Shown here piece by piece: positions 1-18,065 of a DNA stretch of 64,000 bases. Made by a program: the position numbers and the translations under genes. The stretch is taken from contig JAQCBT010000010.1 of assembly GCA_027621405.1 (NCBI GenBank), forward strand, positions 1 through 64,000. Direction: 5' to 3'. The notes under the pieces are model-generated. The model saw nothing but the letters and a program-made list of their open reading frames with translations, searched no databases and had not been told where the DNA came from. Source of the stretch: Pseudomonadota bacterium (lineage in GTDB: Bacteria; Pseudomonadota; Gammaproteobacteria; Pseudomonadales; Pseudohongiellaceae). Each line of letters starts with the position of its first letter. The first letter of the stretch is position 1.

Positions 1-1558
1 CAACCTCAAGAGCGGTCAGGGCTTTAGCAGCGGTGAACGTCATAGAATCATTCGTATCACCTATGATCTGTACCGACTCGCCAGCAGCAAGAGCGGCAAA
101 AGTAACTTTAGTGGTATTTGCCACAGCTTCTACAGCTTTTTTATATACTTTTTCAGCAGTCGTGGGATCTTGGTTGATGGTAACTGAGGTAGTGCTTGTT
201 CCGCCAACTAGCTCAATCTTACCCTGTGTGATTGTCGCGCCAGTAGTGTCTGTCGCTGTTGCTGTATTTGCGCTGTAAGCCTTTTGAGTGACAGTGATGT
301 CGCCTTTGGCTGTTCCAACGATATTACCCAGAGTTGCGTCAGTGGCCGCTGTCACTTTTGCGCCGGTCGAGCTCAAGGTAATGTTGCCGCCAACGGCTGT
401 GCCTTCACCAACTAAAATTGCCGCTATTGCGTCGTTTCCGCCTGCGCCATCGACGTCGTAGTTATTTGCGCCAGCGATCGTAGTTCCACCAACAGTTACT
501 GAAGCGCTAGTGCCGCCATCAACGGCAACGAGTCCTGAGCTTAAGTTGCTATCGTCAACGCTGATTGCACCCTTGGGGGCAGTAGTCGTGCCAACAGTAG
601 TATTTTGAGCTGCTGTTGTGCCAATGATGGAGATGTCTTTACCTCCATTAACCGTCACGGCACCAGTAGCTGCGGAAATGCCTACGTTAGTTGCGGCATT
701 AGCAGTCACTGTAGACGAGGTAGATTGTGTTGTAATTACGTTGTCAAAGGCAGTTGTCGCTACGTCTATTGTAAGTGCGCCTGCACCTCGAGCCGTCAAA
801 GCTTCGACGTTGCTAACATTCAACGTTGCCGGTATGGTTGATCCGTTGGCATCGAGGTCAACAATAACAAGCGTATCAACACCTTCACCACCGTTGATCA
901 TGTCAGTGGCAGCCCAAGTTGCTCCCGTGCCGAGTGTCAGTGAGATTGAGTCATCACCCGCTCCACCTGTGACGTTATCCAGACCAGTAGTGAGCGTAAA
1001 AGTCTGGCCAGCGGCTGGTGGGTTCGCTGTGGTATCCGCAGCGGCTTTTGCAGTTGTGACTGAATCATCACTGCTGGTCACAGTCGCGAGAGTGCTTTGC
1101 AGAGTCGCAATGCTCTCGGAATCCAGCTCGAGAGTCACAGTGTGGTAGGTAGCAACTTCAACTTTGTTGTTGAACAGCGCAGCTGATGAACCAAAGCTTG
1201 GGTCTGATTCGCTCAGAGCCGCCAGATAGGAAGCAGCTTGCAGAATCACGTCTGCGCGGGTACCGCCGCCATTCAGAACGCTTTCTACGACAGAGATACC
1301 TTCAGCGAGTGCATCAGCAGAGGCTTCTGGTACCAGGTTACCCAGGAATTCAGTCGCGAACTCTGTAGCGGTCTGGAAAGTTGGGTAGATTGCTTTAAAG
1401 GTAGTGCTTGTGGTCAGCGTGGTTGCGATATCCGACAGGGACGCGCCACCATCTGCTGCTTCGACAAGATCAGTCAGCAATGCAGTGCCGGGCGCTGCGT
1501 TATACGCAGTTACCACCAGTTCAATAATACTGTTACGGGTTTCAGCTGAAACGGCCAT
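1..1558 (-). CDS. S-layer / RTX-like secreted protein, partial (N-terminal part only)
   Basis: About 519 codons are visible; the reading frame is open to the left edge, so the C-terminus is missing. The ATG at 1558 has a good AGGAG about 7 bases upstream. Residues 1-140 form a helical domain (MAVSAETRNSIIEL...) resembling the DUF4214-like N-termini of proteobacterial S-layer proteins. From about residue 185 the protein is rich in Thr, Ala, Gly, Val and Asp, with few charged residues and no Cys, and has RTX-like glycine/aspartate turns (GGAGDDSI at 198-205, INGGEGVDTL at 221-230). The style is very like Caulobacter RsaA. There is no Sec signal peptide, which fits type I secretion through a C-terminal signal that lies outside the window. 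A full type I exporter is encoded at 8263-12708. A beta-strand-repeat adhesin is the alternative reading. Confidence 0.8.
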   Translation of the reverse strand, partial: MAVSAETRNSIIELVVTAYNAAPGTALLTDLVEAADGGASLSDIATTLTTSTTFKAIYPTFQTATEFATEFLGNLVPEASADALAEGISVVESVLNGGGTRADVILQAASYLAALSESDPSFGSSAALFNNKVEVATYHTVTLELDSESIATLQSTLATVTSSDDSVTTAKAAADTTANPPAAGQTFTLTTGLDNVTGGAGDDSISLTLGTGATWAATDMINGGEGVDTLVIVDLDANGSTIPATLNVSNVEALTARGAGALTIDVATTAFDNVITTQSTSSTVTANAATNVGISAATGAVTVNGGKDISIIGTTAAQNTTVGTTTAPKGAISVDDSNLSSGLVAVDGGTSASVTVGGTTIAGANNYDVDGAGGNDAIAAILVGEGTAVGGNITLSSTGAKVTAATDATLGNIVGTAKGDITVTQKAYSANTATATDTTGATITQGKIELVGGTSTTSVTINQDPTTAEKVYKKAVEAVANTTKVTFAALAAGESVQIIGDTNDSMTFTAAKALTALEV

Positions 1559-1703
1559 TTTAACTCCTTGAGATCGATTTCAATTGTTGTTCCGATGATG
1601 TGACTTCCATCCATGGGCTTCTCTCAATCCTGTAGACAGCCACATAAATGGCAGTAGCCCCATTATCGGTGAACCTAGCATAATCAAAGTACCCCGGCAG
1701 TCT

Positions 1704-1719
1704 TGTGACTGTAGTCACA
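1704..1719. promoter_or_regulatory. Perfect CRP-like operator TGTGACTGTAGTCACA
   Basis: The site is an exact TGTGA-N6-TCACA palindrome; the N6 is CTGTAG. Its centre is about 153 bases upstream of the S-layer-like ATG. A Crp-family regulator whose recognition helix reads SRETVTR is encoded at 7403-8125, and a nucleotide cyclase at 3471-5486. A near-identical site occurs at 7221-7236. The match is seen directly; regulation is inferred. Confidence 0.65.
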
Positions 1720-1901
1720 TGGACTCGGGAAACTGTGAAAATTCTTTCTTTCCTTGATTTATACCTCAGCGAGAGCGCCGCGTGCGCGCACAGGTATCCC
1801 GCTGACACGCATAGGTATCGGCGGGATGCTACAAGCTCTTTAAACCTAAAACAACAGTTAGAGAAAAAAATTAGAAGATATGGGGTAACTGGCTCTTTTT
1901 T

Positions 1902-1928
1902 CGCCATTTTTCATGAAAAAAAATGGCG
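1902..1928. other. Strong hairpin 3' of the TPR/beta-barrel gene
   Basis: CGCCATTTTT (1902-1911) pairs perfectly with AAAAATGGCG (1919-1928). On the minus strand it follows the stop of the 1950 gene and a GGCC-rich stretch that leads into a run of eight T. It may end transcription before the S-layer gene, but it is not a textbook terminator because the T-run lies inside the stem. Confidence 0.4.
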
Positions 1929-1949
1929 GCCTGGCGGCCTCTTGGCAGA

Positions 1950-3302
1950 TTAGAAGCGCCAGCTAAGCCCAATTTCAGCCGTGCTGTCATCGGTCTGGAA
2001 CAGATTCAGCGTGCTGTTCTGGTTCTGGTGGAACAGATTGATGATAAATTGAGCGCGACGGCCAAGGGCGGGCAGATTTTCCCGGTATTGCAGGAAAAAT
2101 GCACTGCGCCCTATCTGGCGCTGGGCGTTATTCGCCAGCAGAGGGCTGTAGCCGCGCTGGTCCTCGATTCGAGTGTGGCTCAGTTGGGCCAGCAAGACCC
2201 CGCGGGACAGGGCGACCTGCCAGTCCACACTCACTTGCCAGCCATCGCGACTACCCCCCAGCCGGTCCGGCTTGAGCTCTCTGTTGTGCAGGAGGTTCAG
2301 TTCAACATTCAGCCTCTGATTCGGTCGCTGCGGCAGGGTGCAGGTGCTGCCCAGTCCCAGTTTGGCCTCAATCCCGTTTAGCCGGCTCTGGTTATGCCAG
2401 GTCTGGTGTTGCAGGGCCAGGCCATAGTGGGGCTGGCATGAGCCAGAGCGGGGCTGCCGGAAACGTAATTCCGCATCCAGGGCCGTGAACAGGGGGGTGC
2501 TGGAGAAGTAGAGATGATTGATTCCAGTGGAGAGCTGCCAGCTGCCCGGTCGAATTTCCCGACTGATGCTGTATCGTCCACTCACCTGGGCCAGATTGGA
2601 ATTGGAATCCTCGCTCAGACGGGTGCGCACTTCCCCGCTAAAGGTCTCCTGGCTGTCCACGGACAGTCGGCGGTGGGTGCCCTGGATGCGGGCATTCAGC
2701 AGAGGGCCGCTGACCACGCGGAATTCCTCACTCAGACTCAAGATGACCGGTTCTCCCGAGAGGGTGAGGGTGATGCTGTCCTGATCAGAGGCGCCATTGA
2801 GGTTGTCATCGTAGCCCCCCAGAATATCCAGCTGCCAACTGGTCTGGCGCGTCAGGGATTGCCAGCGAGACTGGCGCGATTCGATCTGTCCCACCAAAGT
2901 GGGTGGAATATCTTCCCGCTGCAGCAACAGATCATTGATTTCCAGGGCCGTGAAGAGTTGGCCATCGCGGTATAGCGCCTCCCCGTAATCAACCAATGCG
3001 GCGCCATTGTCGGGATTCAGGAGCAATGACCGCTCCAGTGATTCGATCGCTTCTGGCAGTTGTCCTGAATACAGCTGGGCCGCGCCATACAGGGCAAAGA
3101 ATTCACTGCTGCGCAGGCAGCGTGGAAAAATCTCCGCCAGCGCGCTGCGCATCTGCGGCCAATCCGGCTCAGCGTCGCTGTAGTAAGCAGACAGGTCTGG
3201 GCAAGTCTGCGCCTGCGCCAAGGCAAACCGGGGAGCACTCAAGGCGCCCAGTGATACACACAATAAGAGCAGTAGAAGCAGTGAAGGCTTGTTTCGCATC
3301 AT
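1950..3302 (-). CDS. TPR-containing outer-membrane beta-barrel protein (Slam/DUF560-like)
   Basis: About 450 aa. The start at 3302 (MMRNKPSLLLLLLL...) gives a clean Sec signal peptide ending near ALA-QA; an upstream ATG at 3341 would add 13 residues in front of it and is less likely. After the signal, TPR-like helices occupy about residues 40-150 (AAQLYSGQLPEAIESLERSL and the following repeat). The remainder alternates polar and hydrophobic residues, starts with a GGYDDNLN motif typical of TPR/beta-barrel proteins, and ends in Trp-Arg-Phe, a normal C-terminus for BAM-inserted barrels. The architecture recalls surface lipoprotein assembly modulators. It lies between the S-layer-like gene and the cyclase, so a role in surface display or anchoring is plausible but unproven. 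Confidence 0.6.
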   Translation of the reverse strand: MMRNKPSLLLLLLLCVSLGALSAPRFALAQAQTCPDLSAYYSDAEPDWPQMRSALAEIFPRCLRSSEFFALYGAAQLYSGQLPEAIESLERSLLLNPDNGAALVDYGEALYRDGQLFTALEINDLLLQREDIPPTLVGQIESRQSRWQSLTRQTSWQLDILGGYDDNLNGASDQDSITLTLSGEPVILSLSEEFRVVSGPLLNARIQGTHRRLSVDSQETFSGEVRTRLSEDSNSNLAQVSGRYSISREIRPGSWQLSTGINHLYFSSTPLFTALDAELRFRQPRSGSCQPHYGLALQHQTWHNQSRLNGIEAKLGLGSTCTLPQRPNQRLNVELNLLHNRELKPDRLGGSRDGWQVSVDWQVALSRGVLLAQLSHTRIEDQRGYSPLLANNAQRQIGRSAFFLQYRENLPALGRRAQFIINLFHQNQNSTLNLFQTDDSTAEIGLSWRF

Positions 3303-3422
3303 GCTTGTAATTCTTGAACCAGTCCCGCCTGGCCCTTCCATTATCGCGTGCGAAAGTAGCCGGCATCAGCCGTGTTTGTTATTGGCTATCGTTATGTGGC
3401 GACGGAGAATTATCTTGAAACA

Positions 3423-3460
3423 CCCGGGATACTGCAACGCAATAACGGGACGATCCCGGG
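3423..3460. other. Inverted repeat between cyclase and beta-barrel genes
   Basis: CCCGGGAT (3423-3430) and ATCCCGGG (3453-3460) are exact inverted copies separated by 22 bases. They lie in the 168-base gap between the cyclase stop and the beta-barrel start. The pair could be a weak attenuator or an operator; the function is unknown. Confidence 0.3.
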
Positions 3461-3470
3461 CAGGACCAGA

Positions 3471-5486
3471 CTAACGCTTACCACCACTCAGTACGGTCAG
3501 CGCCGGTTGGTTTTTCATGCTGACCACCGGTTTAGCTGCGTGGCCGTAAGCGGGCGCAAACAGGGTGTGCGGTATTCGCAAGCCGCTCAACAGATAGCTG
3601 CCTTGCGATTCCAGCTTCTCATCACTGAGTTGTCTGGCGAAGCATTCACCCACCAGGATAGGCTGGGCCAGTTCGGCCGTCATTTCCTGGATACGCAGGG
3701 TGATGCTGAGGGTGTCGCCCAGCATGGTGAGGCTGCGCCGGTGGGCGGGGCCGATGGATCCAATCAGGACCGGACCCTGTTCGATACCGATGCCAAGTGC
3801 CAGCGGTTCAAGGCCAGAGATAGCATGCTCGGGCAACAGGGTGTCATTCAGGTCTTTCTGCAATTCGCGCGCGGTGCACAGGGCTTTCCTGGCCTCAGCG
3901 CTGTCCGCGCCATCCCACATCGCCAACAGGCTATCACCCTTGAATTCCTGCACTCGACCCCCGTGTCGTTCGATGATGGCGGTGGCCCTGGTGTAGAAAT
4001 AATGCAGCACCGCCGCGGTTTCTTCCGGTGGACGAGCTTCGCCGAAGGCCGAGAAGTTACGCAGGTCGGCATTCAGCAAGGTGACATTGCGGCGGTGAGC
4101 ATTCACGTTGGCATTGGGCAATGCGTAGGCTATTTCCCGGGCAATATCGTCAGGGAGATAGCTGTTCAGATTGCCAAAGACCTGGGAGCGCTCCATGCGG
4201 ACCCGTGCCATCTCAAGCAGCAGCAGTGAAGCCGCTGCAACGGTGCCAAACAGTGCGGAGCCGATCCAGCCGATCCATATATTGCTCGAACCCAGGATCA
4301 GACTATGCAGACCCAGCGCCAGGGCCGGCATGACCAAGGCCGCTACCGGCAATCCATAGGCCGCGACCCTGTCTCCCACTATGGCCAGCACCATGAGGGC
4401 AGCGGCAAAGACGGCACAGAGCAGCAGGGTAAAGAAAATGGCGCCGGCAGGCGTATAGGGCACATTCACATCCAGCAGGCTGGTGAGCAAACGCGCCTGT
4501 AACTCAACGCCCTGCACAGCGCCGCTGTAGGGAGTCGGTACGATATCACCCATGCCGAAGGCAGTGCCACCAATCAGTACCCAGGCATCTTCCAGCATGG
4601 CCGGATCATAGCGGCCAGCAATCACATCCGCTGCGGAGATGGCGGCGAACGCTTCCGGTGCTTTCTCGAAGGAGATGCGCATGCGGCCCTTTGCATCCAG
4701 CGGGATGTCCAGACCGGGATACGCACTGAGGGACATGACTGCCTGGGGTCCAAACAGGGAGTTGCCCGGGTTGATTTCTCCAGACCAACTCGCGCTGTTG
4801 GACAATTGCAGGAATGCCGCGATTGCCAGTGACGGGAAGGCTTGTCCGCCCTGACACACCAGCGCCGGACTATGGCGCACCGCGCCGTCCTTTTCGATTG
4901 GCGCGCCAATATGCCCCTTGGGAATAGCCGCAAAATTGGCCGCTGGCGCAACATAGGTGCTGGCGTTTGGAATCTGTACCGGTGTCGAACTCTCACAAGA
5001 GGCACCCGTGAACCCGTGTGTCATCACGCCTACGGGTGCAATCCCGGTGCCGCCGTTTAAATCGGGTATCTGGGCCAGCACCGCGCCGTTGGCGTTTTGC
5101 AGGCTGGCGATCAATGCCTCATCGCCGGGTCGGGATTCCGGCAGCACGATATCGAATAGCTGCAGCTGGGCACCAGCCTGATCGATGGCATCGACCAGCC
5201 GCGCCATGTCAACACGTTCCCATGGCCAGGGTCCGACTTCGGCGATACTGGCTTCATCGATGACGACCAGGGTAACCCGCTCCTCGGGAGTCTGGTCGGG
5301 ACTCAGAGTCCATCCCAGGGCGCCAGCACGCTCCTCTACCGAAGTCAGCCCACTGCTGAACACGGTAAGCAGCAATCCGCTTAATGCGGCCGCGAGGCCC
5401 AGGGCAATGAATTTGGACATGAGGGGTGATTCCCTCAGCACGACTGAGAGAACACTTGTATTTTTCGACGGCGGCAGGTTAGTCAC
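3471..5486 (-). CDS. CHASE2-domain class III adenylate/guanylate cyclase
   Basis: 671 aa from a GTG at 5486 that overlaps the FecR-protein stop (GTGA); an ATG at 5420 with GAGGGA upstream is an equally good start. Order: one membrane segment (about 24-46), an extracytoplasmic CHASE2 sensor (about 60-345), three membrane helices (about 348-425), a short linker and a class III cyclase domain (about 466-640). The two metal-binding aspartates are visible as D474 (LLNADLRNFS) and D518 (EFKGDSLLAMW), and the transition-state arginine as R598. The partner asparagine of the usual GDTVNxxxR motif is Ser594 here (GDTLSITLR). It probably makes cAMP or cGMP in response to an envelope signal, possibly through the FecR-domain protein encoded just before it. 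Substrate choice cannot be read from the sequence. Confidence 0.85.
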   Translation of the reverse strand: MTNLPPSKNTSVLSVVLRESPLMSKFIALGLAAALSGLLLTVFSSGLTSVEERAGALGWTLSPDQTPEERVTLVVIDEASIAEVGPWPWERVDMARLVDAIDQAGAQLQLFDIVLPESRPGDEALIASLQNANGAVLAQIPDLNGGTGIAPVGVMTHGFTGASCESSTPVQIPNASTYVAPAANFAAIPKGHIGAPIEKDGAVRHSPALVCQGGQAFPSLAIAAFLQLSNSASWSGEINPGNSLFGPQAVMSLSAYPGLDIPLDAKGRMRISFEKAPEAFAAISAADVIAGRYDPAMLEDAWVLIGGTAFGMGDIVPTPYSGAVQGVELQARLLTSLLDVNVPYTPAGAIFFTLLLCAVFAAALMVLAIVGDRVAAYGLPVAALVMPALALGLHSLILGSSNIWIGWIGSALFGTVAAASLLLLEMARVRMERSQVFGNLNSYLPDDIAREIAYALPNANVNAHRRNVTLLNADLRNFSAFGEARPPEETAAVLHYFYTRATAIIERHGGRVQEFKGDSLLAMWDGADSAEARKALCTARELQKDLNDTLLPEHAISGLEPLALGIGIEQGPVLIGSIGPAHRRSLTMLGDTLSITLRIQEMTAELAQPILVGECFARQLSDEKLESQGSYLLSGLRIPHTLFAPAYGHAAKPVVSMKNQPALTVLSGGKR

Positions 5487-6961
5487 TTCTCACTATCCCA
5501 CAAGGTCAGGCCAGATACGGTGCCTTCGTTGATCTGCTTCTCGAACAGATAGCCTGCCTCGGCACCATCATAGCTGACAGCACCACTGATGGTCTGCGTC
5601 TCATCGATCATACGGAAGAAGCCACCGTCGAAGAGACGGCCCGAGCCCGTAATATCAACCTGGCCCGTCAATTCGTGGTCGAGGTTGAGCTCGGTGGCAA
5701 ACAGGCTCTGGTTGAAATCGATTTCGAGACTGCCCCCTTTGACCTGCATGGCGGCGATGCCAGTGTCCGAATTGAACACCGCCTGCGCGGTAGAGAGTTG
5801 GAACCCGATAATGCCCAGGTTGCTATCAAGACGCGCCGGGGTAGTGGGTGTCCGCAACAGCACATGATCCGAATTGCCTATCGTAGTCTCTCGCCCAACT
5901 CTCGCCACACCAAACGGCAGGCTAATGCGGTCGTTTTCCGGTGGGAGCGTGGCGAAGCTGTATCGACCCCACAGCAGCTGGCGGCTGCCGAGCTCGCGCG
6001 TAGTCAGCGCGGATTCTGGCGTGAAGTCGGAAATTGCTGATGTGTTTGAGGCCATCAGCACACTGGCTGCATCACTGGAGACCGCGGAAGTGGTAACACC
6101 TTCCAGCAGGACTTCATTCTGCCTCATGACATCCGATTCGTCTGATGTGCTCAGGGGTGCGACAGGATTGGTGCCTTCAGCGCTGGCAATTGCCAGCTGC
6201 ATCTCGCCCTGCATGGCATCGCGATTGCCAAGATTGTTAACCGGCAATACCTGGGGCAAGGGACTACTGGCATCCAGGGCGAGCATCTGCAGGGACTGGT
6301 CATCCAGCTCCATGGCGTTAGCGACACAGGGGCCTAGCGCATCCTGGCTACACAACGCTGAGAAGGGAGCCAGAATGATGGCACCTTCATAGACTTTCGC
6401 CCGGGTGGTGGCATCGTCGGCACTCACTACAAAGTCCGTGCCGCGGACACCGATGGCCGCGATGGGGGTGTTCAGGCGGAAGCGCTCCCGCGCTGAACTG
6501 GCCGCATCACCCGATATGGCCCGGGTTACGCCTTCCCGAAGGCTGAACTTGACCGCCGAGTCCTGGGGTCGCTCTGCATCGTAGTCGTAGCGGACGATTT
6601 CAAGCACGCTATTGGGCCTTACACTCACCAATGCATCATCGAGGAAGTGAATATGGGCGTGGCCGTTACTTTCCGTGGTGATGCGATCCAGAACCCGGAT
6701 CTCATCGCCTCTACGTAGCCGTTCCGATGAACCATCGGCGCGATGCACATAGGCGCGCCCCAGTACAATGCCGGTTTCACCCACCCGCTGCTGCGCTTGC
6801 ACACGGGAGCCCTGATCTTGTGTGACTGCAGGCTCAAGGGCCAGAGCCGTCGAATTCGTGGTTAGCACAGCGATAGCCAGTGACAAGCCCACAAAATTCC
6901 TGATGAATTCTGTGCCTGCGTCAATTACTCTAGTCAGGAGTTGAACCTGGCTGTTGTTCAT
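5483..6961 (-). CDS. FecR-domain periplasmic protein
   Basis: 492 aa from the ATG at 6961, which places a hydrophobic export segment (FVGLSLAIAVLTTNSTALA) near the N-terminus. An in-frame upstream ATG at 7081 would add 40 charged residues and is unlikely. A FecR-type domain lies at about residues 55-190: GRAYVHRADGSSERLRRGDEI, ITTESNGHAHIHFLDD, then TPIAAIGVRGTDFVV and KVYEGAI. The C-terminal half (about 200-490) is not recognised and is rich in Ser, Ala and Asp. The gene overlaps the CHASE2 cyclase by four bases, so the two are translationally coupled. FecR domains usually relay envelope signals, so this could be the ligand or partner of the CHASE2 sensor; that is inference. Confidence 0.75.
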   Translation of the reverse strand: MNNSQVQLLTRVIDAGTEFIRNFVGLSLAIAVLTTNSTALALEPAVTQDQGSRVQAQQRVGETGIVLGRAYVHRADGSSERLRRGDEIRVLDRITTESNGHAHIHFLDDALVSVRPNSVLEIVRYDYDAERPQDSAVKFSLREGVTRAISGDAASSARERFRLNTPIAAIGVRGTDFVVSADDATTRAKVYEGAIILAPFSALCSQDALGPCVANAMELDDQSLQMLALDASSPLPQVLPVNNLGNRDAMQGEMQLAIASAEGTNPVAPLSTSDESDVMRQNEVLLEGVTTSAVSSDAASVLMASNTSAISDFTPESALTTRELGSRQLLWGRYSFATLPPENDRISLPFGVARVGRETTIGNSDHVLLRTPTTPARLDSNLGIIGFQLSTAQAVFNSDTGIAAMQVKGGSLEIDFNQSLFATELNLDHELTGQVDITGSGRLFDGGFFRMIDETQTISGAVSYDGAEAGYLFEKQINEGTVSGLTLWDSEK

Positions 6962-7402
6962 TGTGAATTCCACATAGTCAGTGAAGGGAGCCTGTGCTGC
7001 CCTGATGCCACGGAAGCGTCGATGAAGGATGCCAACTCGCTCCGATCTCTTAGTTATGGCCCAGTTTTCTATAAAAAACAATAACTAAAGCACAAATCGC
7101 ATCAGCGGCAGAGGCAGCTTGATTGCTGCAGGCACCGTCCTGGACCCTCTTTGGGAGGGCTGCGCACAGCGCTTCCGTAGCTTAACGATCGCTAGCATAT
7201 AGTGACCGGCGATCAATGCAGGTGATTTCAATCACACCAGACTCAAATTCCCGATTTTGCCGCGGTGCATCAAGCACTTATAATGCCGATCAGCCCTATG
7301 AGCCGACTTGTTTGGCGAATTCTGAACTCACCCGGCCAGCGACAACGCCAGGCAGTTAACTAATAGCACCGCACTCGTCCCAGGGGCCCAGGTCCAATAC
7401 GC
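6962..7402. promoter_or_regulatory. Divergent promoter region between FecR and Crp-family genes
   Basis: 441 bases separate the divergent FecR-protein and regulator starts. I see no gene. A near-perfect CRP-like palindrome is at 7221-7236, about 170 bases before the regulator and 265 before the FecR gene. No convincing -10/-35 pair can be singled out. Confidence 0.5.
7221..7236. promoter_or_regulatory. CRP-like operator GGTGATTTCAATCACA
   Basis: This matches TGTGA-N6-TCACA at nine of ten fixed positions (first T replaced by G). It lies between divergent FecR-cyclase and Crp-family genes, a position suited to autoregulation and co-regulation. It pairs with the perfect copy at 1704-1719 in front of the S-layer-like gene. 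Confidence 0.55.
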
Positions 7403-8125
7403 ATGGTAGTAACCCCCGAGCTCCTCAGTGCATTTCCGATTCTGAAGCCGCTGCCCAGGCCAGCCCTGGAGCAGCTTGCAGAATACAGTACAGTGAAGAA
7501 GTTCGCCCGTCGGGGCATTGTACTGACGGCGGGCGAGCAAGAGGATTCCGTGTGTTTTCTCTTCGAAGGGCGGCTTCAGGGCGTCGATTTCACGATTGAT
7601 GGGCGGGAAGTGGGCCTGTTTTTTGTCGAACCCGGCGACTTTTGCGGTGAACTGAGCCTATTCGATGATGGTCCGCAATCGGAGTTTGTCATTGCGCTTA
7701 CCGCCGCCGTGGTCGTTTTTACGCCCAAGGAGGCCTTGCGCCAGATCATGGCGAAAAACCCCGGCATGCTCAGCATCCTGGGAAGCAAACTGGCGGCAAG
7801 AGTGCGGCAGATGACGTTTCAGCGCTCACTCCTTGGCTTGCCGAACATCGCCCAGCGGGTCTGTTGCCAGCTGTGGATGCTGGTACCGGAACGGGACAAG
7901 GCAGATGGCAAGAGTGAACAACAAGCAGCAAACTCGATGATTGCAAATCCGCCAACCCATATGGAGATCGCAATCATGCTCAATATAAGTCGGGAAACCG
8001 TCACCCGGGTGTTTCAGTCTTTACAGAACCGGCAGATAGTTAAACGGGACGGGCCAGCTAAATTGCTGATTTCAGACCTCAATCTGCTCAAACGCTATGC
8101 GGAGGGTTCTGAAGAACTGGGCTAG
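7403..8125 (+). CDS. Crp/Fnr-family transcriptional regulator
   Basis: 240 aa. An N-terminal cyclic-nucleotide-binding fold (about 10-125) has the phosphate-cassette core GDFCGELSLF (78-87), followed by PQSEF where E. coli CRP has ERSAW: the serine is kept but the phosphate-binding arginine is Gln92. A dimer helix leads to a winged helix-turn-helix (about 180-235) with recognition helix SRETVTR (196-202). Its Arg197, Glu198 and Arg202 match the CRP residues that read TGTGA. No FNR-type cysteine cluster is present at the N-terminus. The gene sits between the FecR-cyclase pair and the type I exporter. It likely controls the surface module through the sites at 1704 and 7221. Whether it binds cAMP, another nucleotide or nothing is open. 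Confidence 0.85.
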   Translation: MVVTPELLSAFPILKPLPRPALEQLAEYSTVKKFARRGIVLTAGEQEDSVCFLFEGRLQGVDFTIDGREVGLFFVEPGDFCGELSLFDDGPQSEFVIALTAAVVVFTPKEALRQIMAKNPGMLSILGSKLAARVRQMTFQRSLLGLPNIAQRVCCQLWMLVPERDKADGKSEQQAANSMIANPPTHMEIAIMLNISRETVTRVFQSLQNRQIVKRDGPAKLLISDLNLLKRYAEGSEELG

Positions 8126-8262
8126 GGAATTCAGGTAATTTCCCGGAAAGACTTGAATTCACGCGCTTTAACCGCACCTATGGCCCACCGAGAGAAAAAT
8201 AGCTGTCTGGTCAAGAACGCCATACCAGACTCAAAATCCAAACAAGAACACAGCAACCTGCA

Positions 8263-9978
8263 ATGAGTAAAAATCAATCGGCTCAGTATATTGAGCTTCG
8301 AAATGCGCTGAAAGACTGCAAACAGTATTTCATCTATGCGGGGCTGTTCAGTGCGGCAGTCAATGTGCTGATGCTCACCCCGATTCTTTACATGATGGCG
8401 GTGTATGACCGGGTGGTGGCATCAGGCAGCCTATCAACGCTTGCCATGCTTACTCTCCTGATGGTGGGGCTGTTAATGGCTTCCGGAGGTTTCGAGTGGG
8501 TGCGCTCGCTGATTCTGGTTAGCGCCAGTAATCGCATTGAGACCAATCTGCGGAAGCGTGTCTCGGATGCCACGTTCCGCCGGGCCTTGCTGTCAGGTGG
8601 CATGGTCTCCAATGCGCAACCCATAGCCGATTTGACGGCCCTGCGGCAGTTCCTGACAGGCAATGGCCTGTTCGCCTTCTTCGACGCACCGTGGTTTCCA
8701 ATCTATCTCTGGGTGATGTTCATGTTTCATCCCTGGTTCGGCATCATCGGCATAGTCAGCGGGTTGCTGATGGTCGCCATGGCCTTTGCACAGGAAGCTG
8801 CTACCAACAAGAAACTGCAGGATGCCAATAACGAGGCCAACACCGCATCGAGCCAGTTTCAGGGCGGCCTCAGAAATGCCGAAGTAGTGGAAGCCATGGG
8901 CATGGCTGATGCTATCCGCCGGCGCTATGAGGAAAGGGCGGACAACGTGCTAGGGCTGCAGGCCGATGCCAGTCAGAAAGCGGGCATGCTGGCCGCGGCA
9001 ACCAAGTCACTGCGCATGATTCTGCAGTCGCTCGCCCTCGGTCTGGGTGCCTATCTGGCGCTTAATCAACAAATTTCCCCGGGCATGATGATTGCGGGAT
9101 CGCTCTTGTTGGCGCGCGCCCTGGCACCCATCGACATGCTGGTCGGTACCTGGAAAGCTTTTTCATTGGCCCGGGTGCAATATCGCAGACTGGGAGAGAT
9201 TCTGGAGGGCATACCGGCCCGAAGAGACACAATGAGCCTGCCCGTACCTGCTGGCGAACTCTCAGTTGAACAGGTTGCCGTTGTGCCACCAGGTTCCCAG
9301 AAAGTCGTTGTCCAAGGGGTCACGTTTAACTTATTAGCCGGAGAGGCTGTTGGCATCGTCGGACCCAGCGCATCCGGTAAATCCACCCTGGCCAGAGCCA
9401 TTCTGGGAATCTGGCCCACCTATGCCGGCAAGGTCCGCCTCGATGGGGCCGACATCGCTGCCTGGGATCGTGCGGAACTGGGTCCACACATCGGTTACCT
9501 GCCACAGGATATCGAACTGTTTGATGGCACGATCGCCGATAATATTTGCCGCTTCGATACACCCGACTCGGAAAAAATCGTGCAGGCAGCGAAGCTGGCC
9601 GGTGTACACGACATGATCCTGCGTTTGCCTCAGGGTTATGACACGGTCATCGGTGGTGCCGGCGGCATGCTGTCAGGCGGTCAAAGACAGCGAATAGGGC
9701 TGGCCAGAGCCGTCTATGGCAACCCCAAGCTAATGGTCCTGGACGAACCGAATTCCAATCTGGATGACCAGGGCGAAAAAGAACTGGTAGAGGCCTTGCG
9801 TCGCATCAAGGCACAGGGTTGCACCATCGTTGTCATCACTCATCGCACCATGGTGCTGCAGTGTGTGGATAAAATTCTGGTGATGAAGGGTGGCGCTGCC
9901 GTCAGCTTCGGAGACAAGGACAAGGTTCTGGCCAGCCTCGTGGCACCCGCAGCCGTACCCAAGTCTGCTGCCAGCTAA
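8263..9978 (+). CDS. Type I secretion ABC transporter (PrtD/RsaD-like)
   Basis: 571 aa inner-membrane permease-ATPase that powers one-step export of a C-terminally tagged protein. The N-terminal half has about six membrane helices (from YFIYAGLFSAAVNVLMLTPI onward). The ATPase half shows Walker A GPSASGKST, Q-loop YLPQDIELF, signature LSGGQRQR, Walker B LMVLDEP and the switch histidine in VITHRT. There is no N-terminal C39-like domain, which places it in the PrtD/AprD/RsaD group that exports RTX proteases and S-layer proteins rather than the HlyB group. The adaptor and outer-membrane channel follow directly. The likely substrate is the S-layer-like protein at 1-1558. Confidence 0.93.
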   Translation: MSKNQSAQYIELRNALKDCKQYFIYAGLFSAAVNVLMLTPILYMMAVYDRVVASGSLSTLAMLTLLMVGLLMASGGFEWVRSLILVSASNRIETNLRKRVSDATFRRALLSGGMVSNAQPIADLTALRQFLTGNGLFAFFDAPWFPIYLWVMFMFHPWFGIIGIVSGLLMVAMAFAQEAATNKKLQDANNEANTASSQFQGGLRNAEVVEAMGMADAIRRRYEERADNVLGLQADASQKAGMLAAATKSLRMILQSLALGLGAYLALNQQISPGMMIAGSLLLARALAPIDMLVGTWKAFSLARVQYRRLGEILEGIPARRDTMSLPVPAGELSVEQVAVVPPGSQKVVVQGVTFNLLAGEAVGIVGPSASGKSTLARAILGIWPTYAGKVRLDGADIAAWDRAELGPHIGYLPQDIELFDGTIADNICRFDTPDSEKIVQAAKLAGVHDMILRLPQGYDTVIGGAGGMLSGGQRQRIGLARAVYGNPKLMVLDEPNSNLDDQGEKELVEALRRIKAQGCTIVVITHRTMVLQCVDKILVMKGGAAVSFGDKDKVLASLVAPAAVPKSAAS

Positions 9979-10006
9979 CTCAAGGAATTTACAAGGCGCA
10001 AAGCCC

Positions 10007-11335
10007 ATGAAGATTATTGCCAACCCAAGTCCCGCAACCGCGCCCGACAAGATGGACGCGATTACCAGCATGGAGACACCCAAGCGTGCTGGTCTCTTGT
10101 TATTCGCCCTCGTGTTCGGCGTGTTTGGCCTGTGGGCGAGTATTGCACCGCTGGATGGCGCAGCCTTTGCGCCAGGGCAAGTAACCGTGCGCTCTTATAA
10201 GAAGATCGTGCAACACCTGGAGGGCGGCATCGTTGCCCAGATTCAGGTCCGCAATGGTGATGTCGTTAATCGGGGTGATACCTTGCTGATTCTGGACGAT
10301 ACCCAGGCTCGCGCGGATCTTGAAACGGCGAATGCTCGCTATATTGGCCTCAAGGTACGCGAAGCCAGACTTATCGCAGAGCGTGATCAGTTTGATGAAG
10401 TACGCTTTCCCGTAGAGCTGTCACGCACCGACTCCCGCGTGGCGGAGGAAATGGATGCCCAGGTTTCGATCTTCCAGGCGCGCAAGGCGGCTAACGAGGG
10501 CAGCATAGAAATTCTGGAACAGCGAATCGAGCAGTTGCAGAGCCAGCTCGAAGGCATGCGCGCCGTGCGGGAAGCAAAATTGTTGCTCGCTAACTCGTTT
10601 GAAGAAGAACTGGCGGACACACGCACCCTACTCGAGCAAGGGTTCTCTGATATCAATCGCCTCAGAACCGCTGAGCGCAGCTATGCGTCTTACTCCGGTG
10701 AAGCGGCTGAACTCGCAGCCAATATTTCAGCTACCGAAGTGCGCATCGGTGAGGCACGGCTGGAGATCATTCAGCAACGCAGCGAATTTCGCAACACGGT
10801 TGTCAGTGAACTGGGCGATACCCAGACCGCTTTGAAAGATGTGGCAGAGCGGATTACCGCGCTGGAAGACGTGGTGCGTCGCACACGCGTTGTGTCACCT
10901 GAGTCTGGCATCGTGAACGGTATGCAGGTGCATACAGAGGGTGGCGTGATCGGCCCCGGTTCACCCATTGCCGAGATAGTCCCAGAGAGTGATGAGCTGA
11001 TCATCGAAGCCAGCGTTTCCCCCATGGACATCGATCGAGTTTCCATAGGCCAGGAAGCGCGCATTCGCTTTTCTACGTTCGGCAGCAGGGCACCAACGAT
11101 ATTCGGCAGCCTGTTGAGTCTTTCTGCAGATGCCCTGAATGACGAGCGCACCGGCGGCTCGTTCTACCTGGCCAGAATACAGGTTAATCCTGACAGCATG
11201 GAGGAGTTGGGTGACCTGGCACTGATGCCGGGCATGCCCGCTGAGGTCTATATCAATACCGGATCTCGAACCTTTATGCAGTATCTGTTCAAGCCCCTGT
11301 CGAACGCAGCGGCCCGCAGCTTCAACGAAGACTGA
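10007..11335 (+). CDS. Type I secretion membrane-fusion protein (HlyD/PrtE/RsaE-like)
   Basis: 442 aa from the ATG at 10007, 29 bases after the ABC gene; an upstream in-frame start would overlap that gene and is unlikely. One membrane segment (about 27-47) follows a short cytoplasmic tail. The characteristic KKIVQHLEGGIVAQIQV motif starts the first lipoyl half. A long coiled coil spans about 105-290 (many Glu, Gln, Leu and Ala heptads), then the second lipoyl half (VVSPESGIVNGMQVHTEGG) and a beta-barrel domain. It bridges the ABC protein to the TolC-like channel in the periplasm. It is separated from the channel gene by two bases. Confidence 0.93.
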   Translation: MKIIANPSPATAPDKMDAITSMETPKRAGLLLFALVFGVFGLWASIAPLDGAAFAPGQVTVRSYKKIVQHLEGGIVAQIQVRNGDVVNRGDTLLILDDTQARADLETANARYIGLKVREARLIAERDQFDEVRFPVELSRTDSRVAEEMDAQVSIFQARKAANEGSIEILEQRIEQLQSQLEGMRAVREAKLLLANSFEEELADTRTLLEQGFSDINRLRTAERSYASYSGEAAELAANISATEVRIGEARLEIIQQRSEFRNTVVSELGDTQTALKDVAERITALEDVVRRTRVVSPESGIVNGMQVHTEGGVIGPGSPIAEIVPESDELIIEASVSPMDIDRVSIGQEARIRFSTFGSRAPTIFGSLLSLSADALNDERTGGSFYLARIQVNPDSMEELGDLALMPGMPAEVYINTGSRTFMQYLFKPLSNAAARSFNED

Positions 11336-11337
11336 TC

Positions 11338-12708
11338 ATGAGCTCATCCAGACTACTGCCTAAATTGGCGCTGGGCCTGATGTGCCTTGCCCCATTCACC
11401 TTACCTGCCGCAGAGCCAGCTACTGGCCCCAGTGCGTTGGTGGTGGGTGAAACACTGGAAGATTTCTTTACGGCGGCCATCGATTTCAGCCCGCGGCTGC
11501 GAATTGCCGAAGAAAGCATGAATATTGGCGGAGCCAGGGAACGGCAGGCGCGTGGGCAGCTATTACCCCAGGTGAATGCCAATGCCAGCCTCTCTGACAA
11601 TCGCCGTTATGCACCGCAGTTTGGTGTACAGCGACTCAGTGAATTCGATGGCGAACGCTATTCGGTATCCCTTACCCAGGCTCTCTTCAACTGGCAGGCA
11701 TGGTCGGCGAAAAAGCGTGCTTCCCATATTGAGAATCAGCTGGAAGCAGAATTTTACTACGAGCTCGCCTTCCTGCTCTCCGATGTTGCCTCCCGGTACC
11801 TGGACGTCTTGCAGGCGCAAGATGCATTAACATCAATCGCTTCCGAACTGGATGCCGTTGCTAATCAGCTCGCACAGATCCAGAGTCTGTTCCAGGTGCA
11901 ACAGGCCCAAATCACTGACCTGCGCCAGGCTGAAGCCAGCCTCGCAGCAGTAGAAGCCAATCAACTTCGCCTTCAGGCCGAGCTGGCCATCGCCGAAGAA
12001 TACCTACGCGCGATTACGGGCATTGAAGTTGGGGAACTGTTTGTACTCGACCCGGAAATAAGCCTGCCGGAGGCGGAGAACAGCATCCAGTATTGGGTAC
12101 AAACCGCCAGGGAAAACAACCAGCAGATTGAAGCCAGGCGTTATGCGCTGGAAGCCGCCGAGGAATACATCGCCGAGAATAAAGGTGCCAGCATGCCGCG
12201 CGTCACCTTTATCGCTCAACGCCAGAATTCCAACCTTGGTTTCGATAACGCGTTTATCGACGATACGGAAACAACCTATGTCGGTGTGGACGTGTCGATT
12301 CCCCTGTACGCTGGCGGCACCAACAGCGCGCGAGTTAGTGAAGCGCGCAGTCAACAGAGCATCGCGGAGAGTGAACTCCGACAGGTTGAACTTGAGGCCA
12401 GTGCTCTGGTGAGATCGGCCTACTTGCAGGTTCAATCCAGCGCACTTCTGACGGAAGCGGCTGAACGGCTGGTTGAATCAACGCGCGTGTCCGCGGAGGC
12501 CATGCAAAGAGGTTTTGAACTTGGCACGGTGACCAACGTGGATGTACTCAATGCACTGAGAGATCAATACCAGGCGGAGCGTGAACTACAGACTGCGCGC
12601 TATGAGCACATTAAATACCTGCTGCAGCTCAAGAGAGAGGCAGGTGTACTCAGCGCGGATGACATTCTGGAAGTTGGCGGCTGGTTGATACAGCCAACAG
12701 TTCAGTAG
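11338..12708 (+). CDS. TolC-family outer-membrane channel of the type I system
   Basis: 456 aa. A signal peptide (about 1-25, ending near LPAAEPA) precedes two TolC-like repeats of long helices and strands: ALFNWQAWSAKKRA in the first half and VSIPLYAGGTNSARVSEARS in the second, both in the conserved strand-to-helix position. The C-terminal AERLVESTRVSAEAMQRGFELGTVTNVDVLNA is typical of the family. It completes the exporter with the two genes upstream (spacing two bases), so the three are almost certainly one transcript. It corresponds to RsaF/PrtF. Confidence 0.92.
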   Translation: MSSSRLLPKLALGLMCLAPFTLPAAEPATGPSALVVGETLEDFFTAAIDFSPRLRIAEESMNIGGARERQARGQLLPQVNANASLSDNRRYAPQFGVQRLSEFDGERYSVSLTQALFNWQAWSAKKRASHIENQLEAEFYYELAFLLSDVASRYLDVLQAQDALTSIASELDAVANQLAQIQSLFQVQQAQITDLRQAEASLAAVEANQLRLQAELAIAEEYLRAITGIEVGELFVLDPEISLPEAENSIQYWVQTARENNQQIEARRYALEAAEEYIAENKGASMPRVTFIAQRQNSNLGFDNAFIDDTETTYVGVDVSIPLYAGGTNSARVSEARSQQSIAESELRQVELEASALVRSAYLQVQSSALLTEAAERLVESTRVSAEAMQRGFELGTVTNVDVLNALRDQYQAERELQTARYEHIKYLLQLKREAGVLSADDILEVGGWLIQPTVQ

Positions 12709-12724: not shown

Positions 12725-13609
12725 CTACTGATACAAGTCGATTATCTTGTGCGTCACTTCACGAAGCGATAACGCAAGATCAGCTTCATTGAAGAGGTAA
12801 AACCCTTCAGCAAATTTCACCGCAGGCGGCAACGAGAACGTGCGCCCCTTATCCAGCGCCAGGACCAGTTCCTGGTAATTATTCTCACTGTTTTGACTGG
12901 CATAGATCGCCATCACTTCTTCTTTCTGGTCTTTCTGGGCAGTGACATCAAGTAGCAGATTGACAGGATTCTGAACGCCGATCTCGTAGGCGATCGCCTG
13001 TGGACGCTCTCCAGCCTGATAGAGCCTCTGCAAGGCGCTCCAGACGGCGAACGCCGCTGCACGGTGATCCGGGTGTAGCTCCAATGGGCCGGGAAAGAAT
13101 ACGGTGGCTGGCCCAATTTCCTTGATGGCGGCGGCGATGCGCACATCGAGGCCCTCGCTGTGCTCCAGTCCCCGGTCAGCCTCCGGCCAACATTGCAGGC
13201 TGGCGATGCCCATGAGCCTGGCCGCTTCACCTACTTCACGCTGGCGTATCTCTACCAGGTTCTCCTTATCACCACCGAGGGCGCCGTCGGTAAGCACAAT
13301 GAGGTGGGTTTCCACACCTTCGGCCCTGGCTCGCAGCAGGCTACCCCCCATACCATAGGTTTCGTCATCGGCATGGGGCGCGAATACCAGCCACGGGCCT
13401 GTCGGCAAAGGAGACACTTCGAAAGGAATGAGTACGGGTTCGGGATTAAGCACGGTGGAGTCGATACTAATGGGTAGTACGCCTGGTTGTTTGAGTGCGT
13501 TTGATGGTGAGGCCCAAGTATATAGAAGTTTGGCCTTTGACGGTTGATTCGTGGTTAAATTCGCAATCCAGCGATGCTGCAAGAAAACTCCGATTCCAAG
13601 CTTATTCAC
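12725..13609 (-). CDS. PIG-L family (LmbE-like) deacetylase
   Basis: Up to 294 aa. The zinc-binding motifs are clear: PHADDE (about 78-83) and a second histidine pair in ELHPDHRAA. Members remove N-acetyl groups from sugars or related glycan intermediates. The first 65 or so residues before WLVFAPHADDE are not conserved-looking and the start is only 36 bases from the divergent wzm, so the true start may lie further in. Placement between a type I exporter and an O-antigen exporter suggests it modifies a surface glycan, perhaps the anchor for the S-layer-like protein; this is inference from context. Confidence 0.8.
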   Translation of the reverse strand: MNKLGIGVFLQHRWIANLTTNQPSKAKLLYTWASPSNALKQPGVLPISIDSTVLNPEPVLIPFEVSPLPTGPWLVFAPHADDETYGMGGSLLRARAEGVETHLIVLTDGALGGDKENLVEIRQREVGEAARLMGIASLQCWPEADRGLEHSEGLDVRIAAAIKEIGPATVFFPGPLELHPDHRAAAFAVWSALQRLYQAGERPQAIAYEIGVQNPVNLLLDVTAQKDQKEEVMAIYASQNSENNYQELVLALDKGRTFSLPPAVKFAEGFYLFNEADLALSLREVTHKIIDLYQ

Positions 13610-13645
13610 TGAGTCCGCTTACGAGCAGGCGACACGATTCTGGTA

Positions 13646-14452
13646 ATGACTTTTACTCTACTTCGGCAATGGTTGCTGACCCCGGCCACCCATTACCGGC
13701 TTTTTCATAATTTCGCCCGCCAGGATTTCTTTGCCCAGTTCACGGCGTCGATCGGTGGCTTCCTCTGGCTGTTCCTGACCCCGATTGTCCACATCATCAT
13801 CTACTCCTTCGTATTCAGCTACATCTTCCAGGTGCGCGCACCGGAAGAATTCGGCGAGACCCGCTTCGTAATCTTTATGATGATTGGCTATCTGCCCTGG
13901 TTCGCCTTCAGCGAGGCCATGGGCAAGTCCACCGGATTGTTGCTGGAGAAGGCGCCCCTGATAACGAAGGTCATGTTCCCGGTGCAGATTCTGCCAGTGG
14001 TCGGCACACTGGTACCCTATATTACACACGGTATCGGTTTTATCCTGTTGCTTGTGTACCTGGCGCTACAGGGGCTGTTTTCTCCAGGCTGGTTATTGCT
14101 GCCGGTCGTCTTCCTCTTTCAGTTCCTGTTTACCATGGGCATCGTTGCCGTGCTGTCTGCGCTCTGTGTGTTTCTCAGGGACCTGCAGCAACTGGTGTCG
14201 CTGGCTGTCACTATCTGGTTCTTCCTGACACCCATCATCTACCCGATCTCCATGGTGCAGGATGAAGCGATACGCGACCTGTTCCTGCTCAATCCCATGC
14301 ACAGCTTCATCAATCTGTATCGTGAGATCATTCTGCTGGGTGATTTCTCCATGGTCCATTTTGAAATCATCATCCCGGTTTCCCTGCTGACTTATTTCGC
14401 AGGTGGCTGGTTGTTCATGCGTATCAAGCATGCGTTTGGCGACGTGTTATAG
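13646..14452 (+). CDS. wzm: O-antigen/polysaccharide ABC exporter, permease (Wzm-like)
   Basis: 268 aa ABC-2 type permease with about six membrane helices and the family motif LFLTPIVHIIIYSFVFSYIF near residue 45. It is followed 14 bases later by the matching ATPase with a carbohydrate-binding tail, which identifies the pair as a Wzm/Wzt exporter of lipid-linked polysaccharide across the inner membrane. No glycosyltransferases are next to it in this window, so the biosynthetic genes must be elsewhere. Confidence 0.88.
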   Translation: MTFTLLRQWLLTPATHYRLFHNFARQDFFAQFTASIGGFLWLFLTPIVHIIIYSFVFSYIFQVRAPEEFGETRFVIFMMIGYLPWFAFSEAMGKSTGLLLEKAPLITKVMFPVQILPVVGTLVPYITHGIGFILLLVYLALQGLFSPGWLLLPVVFLFQFLFTMGIVAVLSALCVFLRDLQQLVSLAVTIWFFLTPIIYPISMVQDEAIRDLFLLNPMHSFINLYREIILLGDFSMVHFEIIIPVSLLTYFAGGWLFMRIKHAFGDVL

Positions 14453-14466
14453 GGCAGTTTCAAAAC

Positions 14467-15702
14467 ATGGCGCGAATTACCGTTAACAACCTGCACAAGG
14501 AATTCAGAATCTATGAGCGTCCCCAGGATCGCCTGTGGGAGATTCTACAGCGGCGGCCGCGGCACACGCTCTACCACGTGCTGGACGATATCTCTTTCGC
14601 CGTACCTGATGGCAAGAGCCTGGGTATCATCGGCGTTAACGGGGCAGGCAAGTCTACGCTCCTGAAGTTATTGGTAGGCACCCTGCAACCCACCCGCGGT
14701 GAGATAGCGATTGAGGGACAGGTTGCCGCCTTGCTTGAGCTAGGCGCTGGATTTCATCCGGAATTCACCGGTCGCCGCAATATCTATCTCAATGCCTCGC
14801 TGCTGGGTGTGCCCGACGACAATATTGCCGAACTCGAAAGAGACATCATCGAGTTCTCCGAGCTGGACTATTTCATCGATCGCCCGGTCAAGACCTATTC
14901 CTCGGGCATGTATGTGAGGCTGGCCTTTTCCATCGCCACCATGGTGCGCCCCGATATCCTGGTTATCGATGAAGCCCTGTCGGTTGGCGACATGGCATTT
15001 CAGCGCAAATGCGTGGAACGCATGAACCAGTTTCGTGCCGACCAGAAGACCATGGTGTTCTGCAGCCACTCCATGTTTCACGTACAGGAATTGTGCGATA
15101 CCGCGATCTGGATAGACCAGGGCAAGATACGTGAGATGGGCGATAGCGAGCGGGTGGTGGGACATTATGAAGACTACTGCAATAGCAAGAAAAGCTATAA
15201 CAGTATTCGCGAGGACCTGCCCAGGGAACTGGAGTCCAAGGCAACTACTGATGAGTCAGATGCAGCAGAAGATGCTTCGGTTCAGGACTGCCGTATCAAC
15301 AACCTCAGGGTCAAGGACAGCAACGGCAATGTGATCGAAGAGCTCGAACCGCTGGGCACGGTAGTGCTGGAGATGGAGGTTGAGGTACTCAAGGACGGCA
15401 TAGAGGGCAACTTTGGCTTCGCCTTCATGAAATCATCCGAGGAACCTCATGCGTCCTTCCTCACCACTGAAGTAGACGATGTGGAAAAGGGGCCTTTCCA
15501 TAAAGGCGACCGCTTTACCGTGTCGCTCACCGTTGAGCACTTCGCGATGCGCGTAGGAGAGTACTATGTGCTGGGCGGTCTTGCGGACAAGAGCGGCCTG
15601 CTCTGGTATGAGACCAAGTTCAGCAAACTACTCCGCATCAAGGCTACCAAGGGTGTTGGGCCCATCACCATGGTATCGGGTTGGTCGGTAAATCGATTGT
15701 AG
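14467..15702 (+). CDS. wzt: O-antigen/polysaccharide ABC exporter, ATPase (Wzt-like, with C-terminal glycan-binding domain)
   Basis: 411 aa. The ATPase domain (1-240) has Walker A GVNGAGKST, the family-typical LELGAGFHPEFTGRRNIYLNA, signature TYSSGMYVRLAFS and Walker B ILVIDEALSVGD. A linker leads to a beta-sandwich (about 275-405) of the Wzt-C type, which in studied systems recognises the capped end of the O-antigen. Such domains mark polymers whose length is set by terminal modification. It pairs with the permease upstream and ends about 230 bases before the convergent gspK. Confidence 0.9.
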   Translation: MARITVNNLHKEFRIYERPQDRLWEILQRRPRHTLYHVLDDISFAVPDGKSLGIIGVNGAGKSTLLKLLVGTLQPTRGEIAIEGQVAALLELGAGFHPEFTGRRNIYLNASLLGVPDDNIAELERDIIEFSELDYFIDRPVKTYSSGMYVRLAFSIATMVRPDILVIDEALSVGDMAFQRKCVERMNQFRADQKTMVFCSHSMFHVQELCDTAIWIDQGKIREMGDSERVVGHYEDYCNSKKSYNSIREDLPRELESKATTDESDAAEDASVQDCRINNLRVKDSNGNVIEELEPLGTVVLEMEVEVLKDGIEGNFGFAFMKSSEEPHASFLTTEVDDVEKGPFHKGDRFTVSLTVEHFAMRVGEYYVLGGLADKSGLLWYETKFSKLLRIKATKGVGPITMVSGWSVNRL

Positions 15703-18061: not shown

Positions 18062-18065
18062 GATG

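Follow-up and report, generated by a model that had tools for sequence, protein, structure and literature searches.

A Crp-family regulator as the probable dedicated activator of an S-layer-like gene and a FecR-cyclase operon in Pseudohongiella-type bacteria

Two palindromes resembling binding sites of the cAMP receptor protein (CRP) flank a small group of genes in the first 64 kb of contig C53 of a 3.7 Mb Pseudohongiellaceae draft genome (here called the window; window base 1 is contig base 1), and the question they raise is which protein reads them. One, the S site, precedes an S-layer-like protein gene (SLAY), and the other, the F/R site, lies in the divergent promoter region between a FecR-domain gene (FECR) and a Crp/Fnr-family regulator gene (REG). 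A nucleotide cyclase gene (CYC) and the gene for a predicted outer-membrane protein (OMP) lie between the two sites, and type I secretion genes (PRTD, HLYD and TOLC) follow REG. An earlier note on this DNA described the arrangement as a self-contained CRP-like circuit. Our comparisons with related genomes indicate that REG is probably a dedicated Crp-family activator with very few targets, acting at the S-layer-like gene and at the FecR operon, a reading in which we place good confidence.

Both sites are as first described: the S site (TGTGACTGTAGTCACA) is a perfect palindrome with its centre about 153 nt from the ATG of the S-layer-like gene, and the F/R site (GGTGATTTCAATCACA) matches nine of ten positions. 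The window contains three matches at one mismatch or fewer against 1.97 expected, a number reached by 30 of 100 shuffled sequences, and at the same threshold the own genome has 67 matches against 47 for the reversed pattern. Against this background a lone nine-of-ten site proves nothing, and the notion that the two sites are significant by themselves was rejected, because counts are near background both in the window and at one mismatch genome-wide. The genome-wide scan for TGTGA-N6-TCACA proposed in the earlier note yields seven perfect sites against none for the reversed pattern, with the six outside the window adjoining unrelated genes, but this number is compatible with CRP and with REG alike and was abandoned as an arbiter. 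Since the own genome has both a CRP ortholog and seven perfect sites, comparison with relatives was needed to see whether the sites belong to a global CRP regulon.

Two overlapping sets of relatives were used, the first consisting of 21 loci and the window, and the second of 80 named loci, the best 80 of 143 relatives in a scan of named genomes, whose organisms overlap those of the first. In the first set, at one mismatch or fewer, the F/R site is present in 22/22 loci and the S site in 12/12 SLAY-OMP intervals, perfectly so in 11. When all 1024 palindromic half-sites were scored in this set, TGTGA at up to one mismatch again gave 22/22 and 12/12, and the best half-sites not built on GTGA reached 5 (F/R) and 4 (S); the half-site control in the 80-locus set used 200 random half-sites, the full 1024 being scored in the first set only. 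Among the named loci the F/R site (one mismatch or fewer) is present in 80/80 FecR/REG intervals, and the S site is perfect in 47 of 50 regions scanned, within one mismatch in 48 of 50, and likewise present in 47/47 S-layer/OMP intervals. The exceptions are L139 with one mismatch, L192 with no site, and L204 with none within the 260 nt scanned; at L204 the scan match began inside the gene, and a perfect site is present at 3375. The same pattern applied to other intervals of the same loci matches 1/75 between REG and PRTD, 0/64 between OMP and CYC, 0/70 within CYC coding sequence and 0/64 downstream of TOLC. Both sites are kept in Terasakiispira, which belongs to another lineage. Across relatives the two sites are far beyond chance. 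An explanation by chance palindromes would account for the near-background counts in the window and at one mismatch genome-wide, but the conservation, the control intervals, the half-site control and the promoter spacing described below refute it, and its probability is practically negligible.

The two sites share the motif GTGAY-N4-RTCAC; its Y (position 6) and its R (position 11) are invariant in 80/80 F/R sites and 48/48 S sites. They differ at the first base, which is T in 47/48 S sites and something other than T in 78/80 F/R sites, where A, G and C all occur. A tree of REG (79 rows, omitting the broken L205) requires no fewer than 13 substitutions at the first base of the F/R site, with T arising once; were each substitution to yield T with a one in three chance, so few (one or none among 13) would have a probability of about 0.04. 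This weakly suggests, without proving it, that the weaker half of the F/R site is selected.

The position of each site relative to its promoter is also fixed. A TAnnnT hexamer lies exactly 21 nt from the site end on the FECR side in 75/80 loci and on the SLAY side in 41/48, with seven further SLAY cases at 22 nt; the median count over the 60 gaps tested is 0 on both sides. This 21-nt spacing places the site centre at -41.5, which is the position of a class II activator, -62.5 or thereabouts being the weaker class I position (PMC6301791; articles are cited by PMC identifier for those portions of them drawn on here). On the REG side the commonest gap to TAnnnT is 42 nt (37/80 loci; median over gaps 1), corresponding to a centre at about -62.5. 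All three spacings (21, 21 and 42 nt) hold in the window, as counted by eye, and the REG promoter there has a -35 element, TTGCCG, with a spacing of 16 nt. By eye, the loci of five genomes without CRP (L062-L065 and L067) retain the FECR spacing and have no such box on the REG side, which suggests that FECR and SLAY are the main targets and that autoregulation of REG is often added to them. The feedback on sensor and regulator genes that the earlier note envisaged is therefore supported at FECR, where the site occurs in all 80 loci and the -10 hexamer has its fixed spacing in 75, but only partly at the regulator gene itself.

We suppose that a REG dimer would bind the GTGAY-N4-RTCAC palindromes and, at -41.5 of the S-layer-like gene and of the FecR-cyclase-OMP operon, would take the place of a -35 box in class II activation. 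From near -62.5 of the REG promoter, in many species, the F/R site may also raise REG and the secretion genes in a weaker, class I manner, and FecR with the CHASE2 cyclase would be the likely envelope sensor feeding REG. Repression by REG at these sites is conceivable insofar as a site overlapping the -35 region could block polymerase, but the fixed 21-nt spacing to the -10 hexamer, the promoter element scored systematically, is the class II layout (PMC6301791), and we consider a repressor quite improbable.

If REG is the activator, it must be distinguishable from CRP as the reader of the sites. In the window it carries the recognition helix SRETVTR with R197, E198 and R202, as previously pointed out, and these R-E-R base-contact residues (the places of Arg180, Glu181 and Arg185 of CRP) are present in 81/81 sequences, so that REG combines CRP-type base contacts with putative sites of the TGTGA type. 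Both of its domains score above their Pfam cut-offs, placing it in the Crp/Fnr superfamily, and its structure model (pLDDT 90.8) matches Clr, CRP and GlxR, with Clr the best match, tied within 1 Z with 2gau. REG was also examined in an alignment of 34 sequences, the alignments A1 and A2 comprising 32 and 34 rows. It is not the CRP ortholog: the NCBIfam CRP model gives 74.9 bits against a cut-off of 266, and the own genome encodes a separate, closer CRP ortholog among seven CNB-domain matches, together with six class III cyclase-domain matches.

The genus provides genomes in which CRP appears to be missing. REG was found in 35 of 61 genomes drawn from the genus (E <= 1e-25) and CRP orthologs in 38 of the 61 (E <= 1e-30). 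Ten of the 35 genomes with REG have no CRP match, six of them drafts that are 94-98% complete (G017, G021, G029, G032, G036 and G077), and the F/R site is kept in all ten. REG is the sole CNB-domain protein in five of the six, G077 adding one with an FNR-type helix (IETVSR), and CYC is the sole class III cyclase in all six; a control genome, G028, has six matches to each domain. The apparent absence from these six of CRP and of every class III cyclase except CYC is in itself an unusual loss of classical cAMP signalling.

The stricter motif TGTGAYYNNRRTCACA occurs 38 times in the 61 genus genomes against 5 for the reversed control, and 24 of these matches precede a SLAY gene. The only match in G077 precedes an S-layer-like gene about 13 kb from REG, and the only matches in G021 and G029 precede S-layer-like genes on other contigs.

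That the sites belong to a global cAMP-CRP regulon with REG as a bystander draws on the own genome's CRP ortholog and seven perfect sites, and on the same motif occurring by xthA/moaB in a genome in which REG was not found. Against this stand the persistence of the F/R site in the genomes that have REG and no CRP match, and, in three of them, S-type sites that precede S-layer-like genes lying apart from REG. We regard a CRP regulon as very improbable, and the possibility raised in the earlier note as a refutation, that both sites are ordinary members of such a regulon, is correspondingly unlikely. Because the F/R site is kept where no CRP match is found and the R-E-R contacts are invariant, REG rather than CRP most likely reads the sites, CRP seeming absent to do so.

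Several points weigh against REG as a dedicated activator. The motif is not exclusive to its putative targets: of the TGTGAYYNNRRTCACA matches, nine lie at other places (one of them at G064:C56) and five by xthA/moaB, including one in G081, a genome in which no REG was found. G017 and G032 have no match to the strict motif, that of G036 is at the end of a contig, where no gene can be read, and the S-layer-like paralog at L062/L192 lacks the site. The genomes in which CRP appears to be absent are fragmented drafts, apart from single-contig G077, and the rows compared are mutually related by descent and mostly metagenome-assembled genomes (MAGs).

The palindrome in the xthA/moaB region is found in five genus genomes, namely the own genome (C32:40461-40476, position 8462 of L077) and those of L084, L089, L092 and L097. 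It is probably a CRP site, and one of the genomes is without a detected REG.

What signal passes from the cyclase to REG is less clear-cut than the reading of the sites. One proposal, close to that of the earlier note, is that the CHASE2 cyclase makes cyclic AMP (cAMP) or cyclic GMP (cGMP), which REG binds in a standard CRP pocket to activate the S-layer gene, in the way that CyaD1 and Clr work in S. meliloti. REG and CYC do stay together, no other such pair being left in the CRP-less genomes, and parts of the pocket are retained: among the 80 intact orthologs aligned for the pocket, Glu72 is kept in 78/80 and Thr occupies the Ser128 place in 70/80, as it also does in the own genome's CRP. That Clr is the best structural match of REG (again tied with 2gau) also fits this proposal. 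There is, however, no Arg at or within two columns of the phosphate-binding Arg82 in any of the 80. Gln precedes a one-residue gap there in 79/80 and Glu follows in 79/80, and in eight orthologs the loop carries an Arg four positions before this place. The Ser83 place is Pro in 76/80, Ser in two (one being the window REG) and Thr in two, and the Thr127 place is Met or Leu in 80/80. By contrast, 25 of 28 distant Crp-family relatives retain the Arg-Ser motif, one having Cys and two being unreadable at that place. Given that none of the 80 aligned intact orthologs has the phosphate-binding Arg, the ligand of REG is unlikely to be cAMP or cGMP in the standard binding mode.

The cyclase is altered as well. 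That a class III cyclase lies between the two sites is correct, CYC being of the CHASE2-class III type. In 64 sequences whose match runs near the domain end, the metal-binding Asp is present at both places in 64/64 and the Arg of the transition-state pair in 63/64, as the cyclic-nucleotide proposal would have it, but the transition-state Asn survives in only 1/64. The base-specifying place, four before the second metal Asp, is Glu in 64/64 and Lys in none; the Lys of EFKGD was considered as the base-specifying residue and rejected, the place in question being the Glu. Glu here is the guanylyl-cyclase state, and Ma1120 is an active cyclase with Ala in place of the Asn (PMC4215837), so that loss of Asn need not make CYC a dead enzyme, a reading that we rejected. 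Of 29 CYC relatives in other families, 27 keep Lys and Asn and two are unreadable, and Lys is at the base-specifying place in the four other cyclases of the own genome that align (of its five others, L015 is unaligned and L012 lacks the first metal column).

With the Arg of REG and the Asn of CYC both lost, standard cyclic-nucleotide control appears unlikely. The chain suggested previously, from envelope signal through cyclic nucleotide to regulator, thus lacks support at its canonical nucleotide link, whereas the local circuit is supported, in that a Crp-family regulator appears to act on the S-layer-like gene and the FecR/cyclase operon (conserved sites, activator positions, persistence without CRP). 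More tentatively, and with somewhat less than even confidence, we suggest that a Clr-type cyclase and Crp set has moved off standard cAMP/cGMP chemistry as a unit and become a dedicated master switch of the S-layer-like gene and of its own sensor. It would then consist of a guanylyl-cyclase-like CHASE2 enzyme without the catalytic Asn and a Crp-fold activator without the phosphate Arg, the last such pair in genomes that have lost CRP and the remaining class III cyclases; what passes between them would be another nucleotide or not a nucleotide at all.

One locus in another family may bear on how the pair arose. L236 (G310, 2183-11813) has a REG-like gene, a cyclase of the CHASE2 type that keeps both Lys and Asn, and a PrtD exporter (53% identical); one AGTGACGAATGTCACA precedes the exporter gene, and glycosyltransferase-like genes lie in between. 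Its regulator has an Arg-Leu-Ala-Ser motif, the Arg of which aligns one column before the Arg82 column. This version is a hint, from one case, of the ancestral state.

The closest known set is that of Sinorhizobium meliloti, comprising Clr (SMc02175), the CHASE2 cyclase CyaD1 (SMc02176), SMc02177 with a FecR domain, and SMc02178, and the same grouping of Crp-like regulator, CHASE2 cyclase and FecR gene is present here. Clr binds cAMP and cGMP via G85, E86, R95, S96, T140 and T141 (PMC10127613); REG differs in lacking an Arg equivalent to R95, so that the Arg-Ser pair R95-S96 is without a counterpart. The Clr regulon comprises tens of genes (PMC5498481), whereas REG seems to have two or three promoters, and the target here is an S-layer-like gene with a PrtD-type exporter. 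REG resembles E. coli CRP and Pseudomonas Vfr in fold, in the R-E-R contacts, in the TGTGA half-site and in the -41.5 and approximately -62 positions, and differs from them in its low CRP-model score, the absent phosphate Arg and the presence of a separate CRP ortholog in the genome. DdrI of Deinococcus radiodurans is a Crp-family protein with an altered cAMP pocket that binds DNA without cAMP (PMC11253593); it keeps the Arg and is described as global, whereas REG has lost the Arg and looks local.

The coordinates of the locus are collected in the table. The FECR start may be the ATG at 6962, to judge from a signal-like N-terminus, and that of HLYD is probably inside the listed open reading frame. 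The outer-membrane barrel of OMP is predicted from its C-terminal ...SWRF. All three models of a PrtD-type type I secretion system score above cut-off in the window, TOLC narrowly.

Features of the locus, in window coordinates
Feature	Position	Strand	Details
SLAY, S-layer-like protein gene	1..1558	-	ATG at 1556-1558; truncated by contig start
-10 hexamer TATGCT, S-layer promoter	1677..1682	-	21 nt beyond S site
S site TGTGACTGTAGTCACA	1704..1719	no strand	0 mismatches; centre at -41.5 of S-layer promoter
OMP, TPR protein, predicted outer-membrane barrel end	1950..3341	-	TPR matches below Pfam cut-offs
CYC, CHASE2-class III nucleotide cyclase	3471..5486	-	Pfam CHASE2 140.5 bits; Guanylate_cyc 38.2 bits (cut-off 21.9)
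FECR, FecR-domain protein	5483..7081	-	Pfam FecR 55 bits
-10 hexamer TATGCT, FECR promoter	7194..7199	-	21 nt beyond F/R site
F/R site GGTGATTTCAATCACA	7221..7236	no strand	1 mismatch (9/10); -41.5 for FECR, about -62.5 for REG
-10 hexamer TATAAT, REG promoter	7279..7284	+	42 nt beyond F/R site
REG, Crp/Fnr-family regulator, 240 aa	7403..8125	+	Pfam cNMP_binding 59 bits; HTH_Crp_2 46.6 bits
PRTD, type I secretion ABC transporter, PrtD type	8263..9978	+	TIGR01842, 741.1 bits (cut-off 510.15)
HLYD, type I secretion HlyD-type adaptor	9890..11335	+	TIGR01843, 373.6 bits (cut-off 208.65)
TOLC, TolC-type outer-membrane channel	11338..12708	+	TIGR01844, 229.9 bits (cut-off 225.15)

Pfam gave no match in the surviving part of the truncated window SLAY. 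Of four such proteins scanned, the two complete relatives (L263 and L237; 1060 and 1211 aa) have C-terminal RTX repeats, which were not seen in the window SLAY or in L204, both truncated; SLAY is taken to be S-layer-like because of the repeats in these complete relatives and the neighbouring exporter. The Caulobacter-type RTX S-layer likewise has its own type I exporter. Methanotroph S-layer loci too pair a surface protein of RTX type with an operon for type I secretion (PMC13274458), a pairing that the present locus seems to share with both. The words crp, fecr and chase2 are absent from the main text of that article.

The order SLAY, OMP, CYC, FECR, divergent REG, PRTD, HLYD, TOLC recurs in most loci that are long enough. 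FECR adjoins REG in 78/80 loci and CYC is present in 70/80, REG in the remainder being within about 1.7 kb of a contig edge; loci that a contig end truncates carry no entry for S or FECR. SLAY is apart from the cluster in some loci, and the exporter is inverted in one genome. That genome, G021 (L062/L192 and L237), has two S-layer-like genes, with a site only at the one on the other contig, and its inverted exporter genes are beside REG. Within the FECR operon OMP is usually the gene after CYC, and its product might anchor the S-layer or help to assemble it; in Oceanospirillum neither OMP nor SLAY has a match beside CYC.

In a draw of relatives, REG was found in 22 of 58 genomes, the own genome counted, and in 0 of the 21 from other families. 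A protein search returned 1779 relatives at E <= 1e-15, of which 120 were listed. The 80 loci come from three isolates (Pseudohongiella or LSUCC0112), many MAGs (titled Gammaproteobacteria, Pseudomonadales or Pseudohongiella), Oceanospirillum sediminis and Terasakiispira papahanaumokuakeensis. Two further MAGs holding the cluster (L159 and L161, REG identity 69%) are titled Rhodoferax and Klebsiella pneumoniae, titles that look wrong. In another MAG (L205/L068, G012) stops or frame breaks interrupt the matches to REG, FECR, CYC and PRTD, through either decay or sequencing error.

Beyond the secretion genes, window positions 12725-15702 encode a PIG-L deacetylase and an O-antigen-type ABC exporter with a Wzt_C domain. 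In Oceanospirillum and Terasakiispira (L202 and L204) O-antigen-type ABC exporter genes, named from their sequence, follow REG in place of the type I exporter. With similar glycan-type genes in the window and in these two, the locus may link the S-layer and surface glycan. Type II secretion genes (T2SSK, Secretin, T2SSF and T2SSE domains) occupy 15931-23977.

Clr-type sets, CRP-like sites, PrtD-type exporters and RTX S-layers were all known already. What appears new is that they would be joined here into a switch devoted to the S-layer and altered at each end of the nucleotide link, and no paper on such a regulator for an S-layer came up among the results listed by searches of openly licensed texts. 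A marine bacterial genus thus appears to carry a small, stand-alone switch related to the cAMP receptor. The TGTGAYYNNRRTCACA motif alone points to S-layer-like genes, and the three non-adjacent ones were found in this way. In the Pseudohongiella-type genomes without CRP, the whole system seems to consist of one Crp-family protein, one class III cyclase and a few conserved sites, and these organisms offer a natural test bed. If the ligand is not cAMP or cGMP bound in the usual way, a second-messenger pair would have changed its chemistry while its DNA sites and target stayed fixed.

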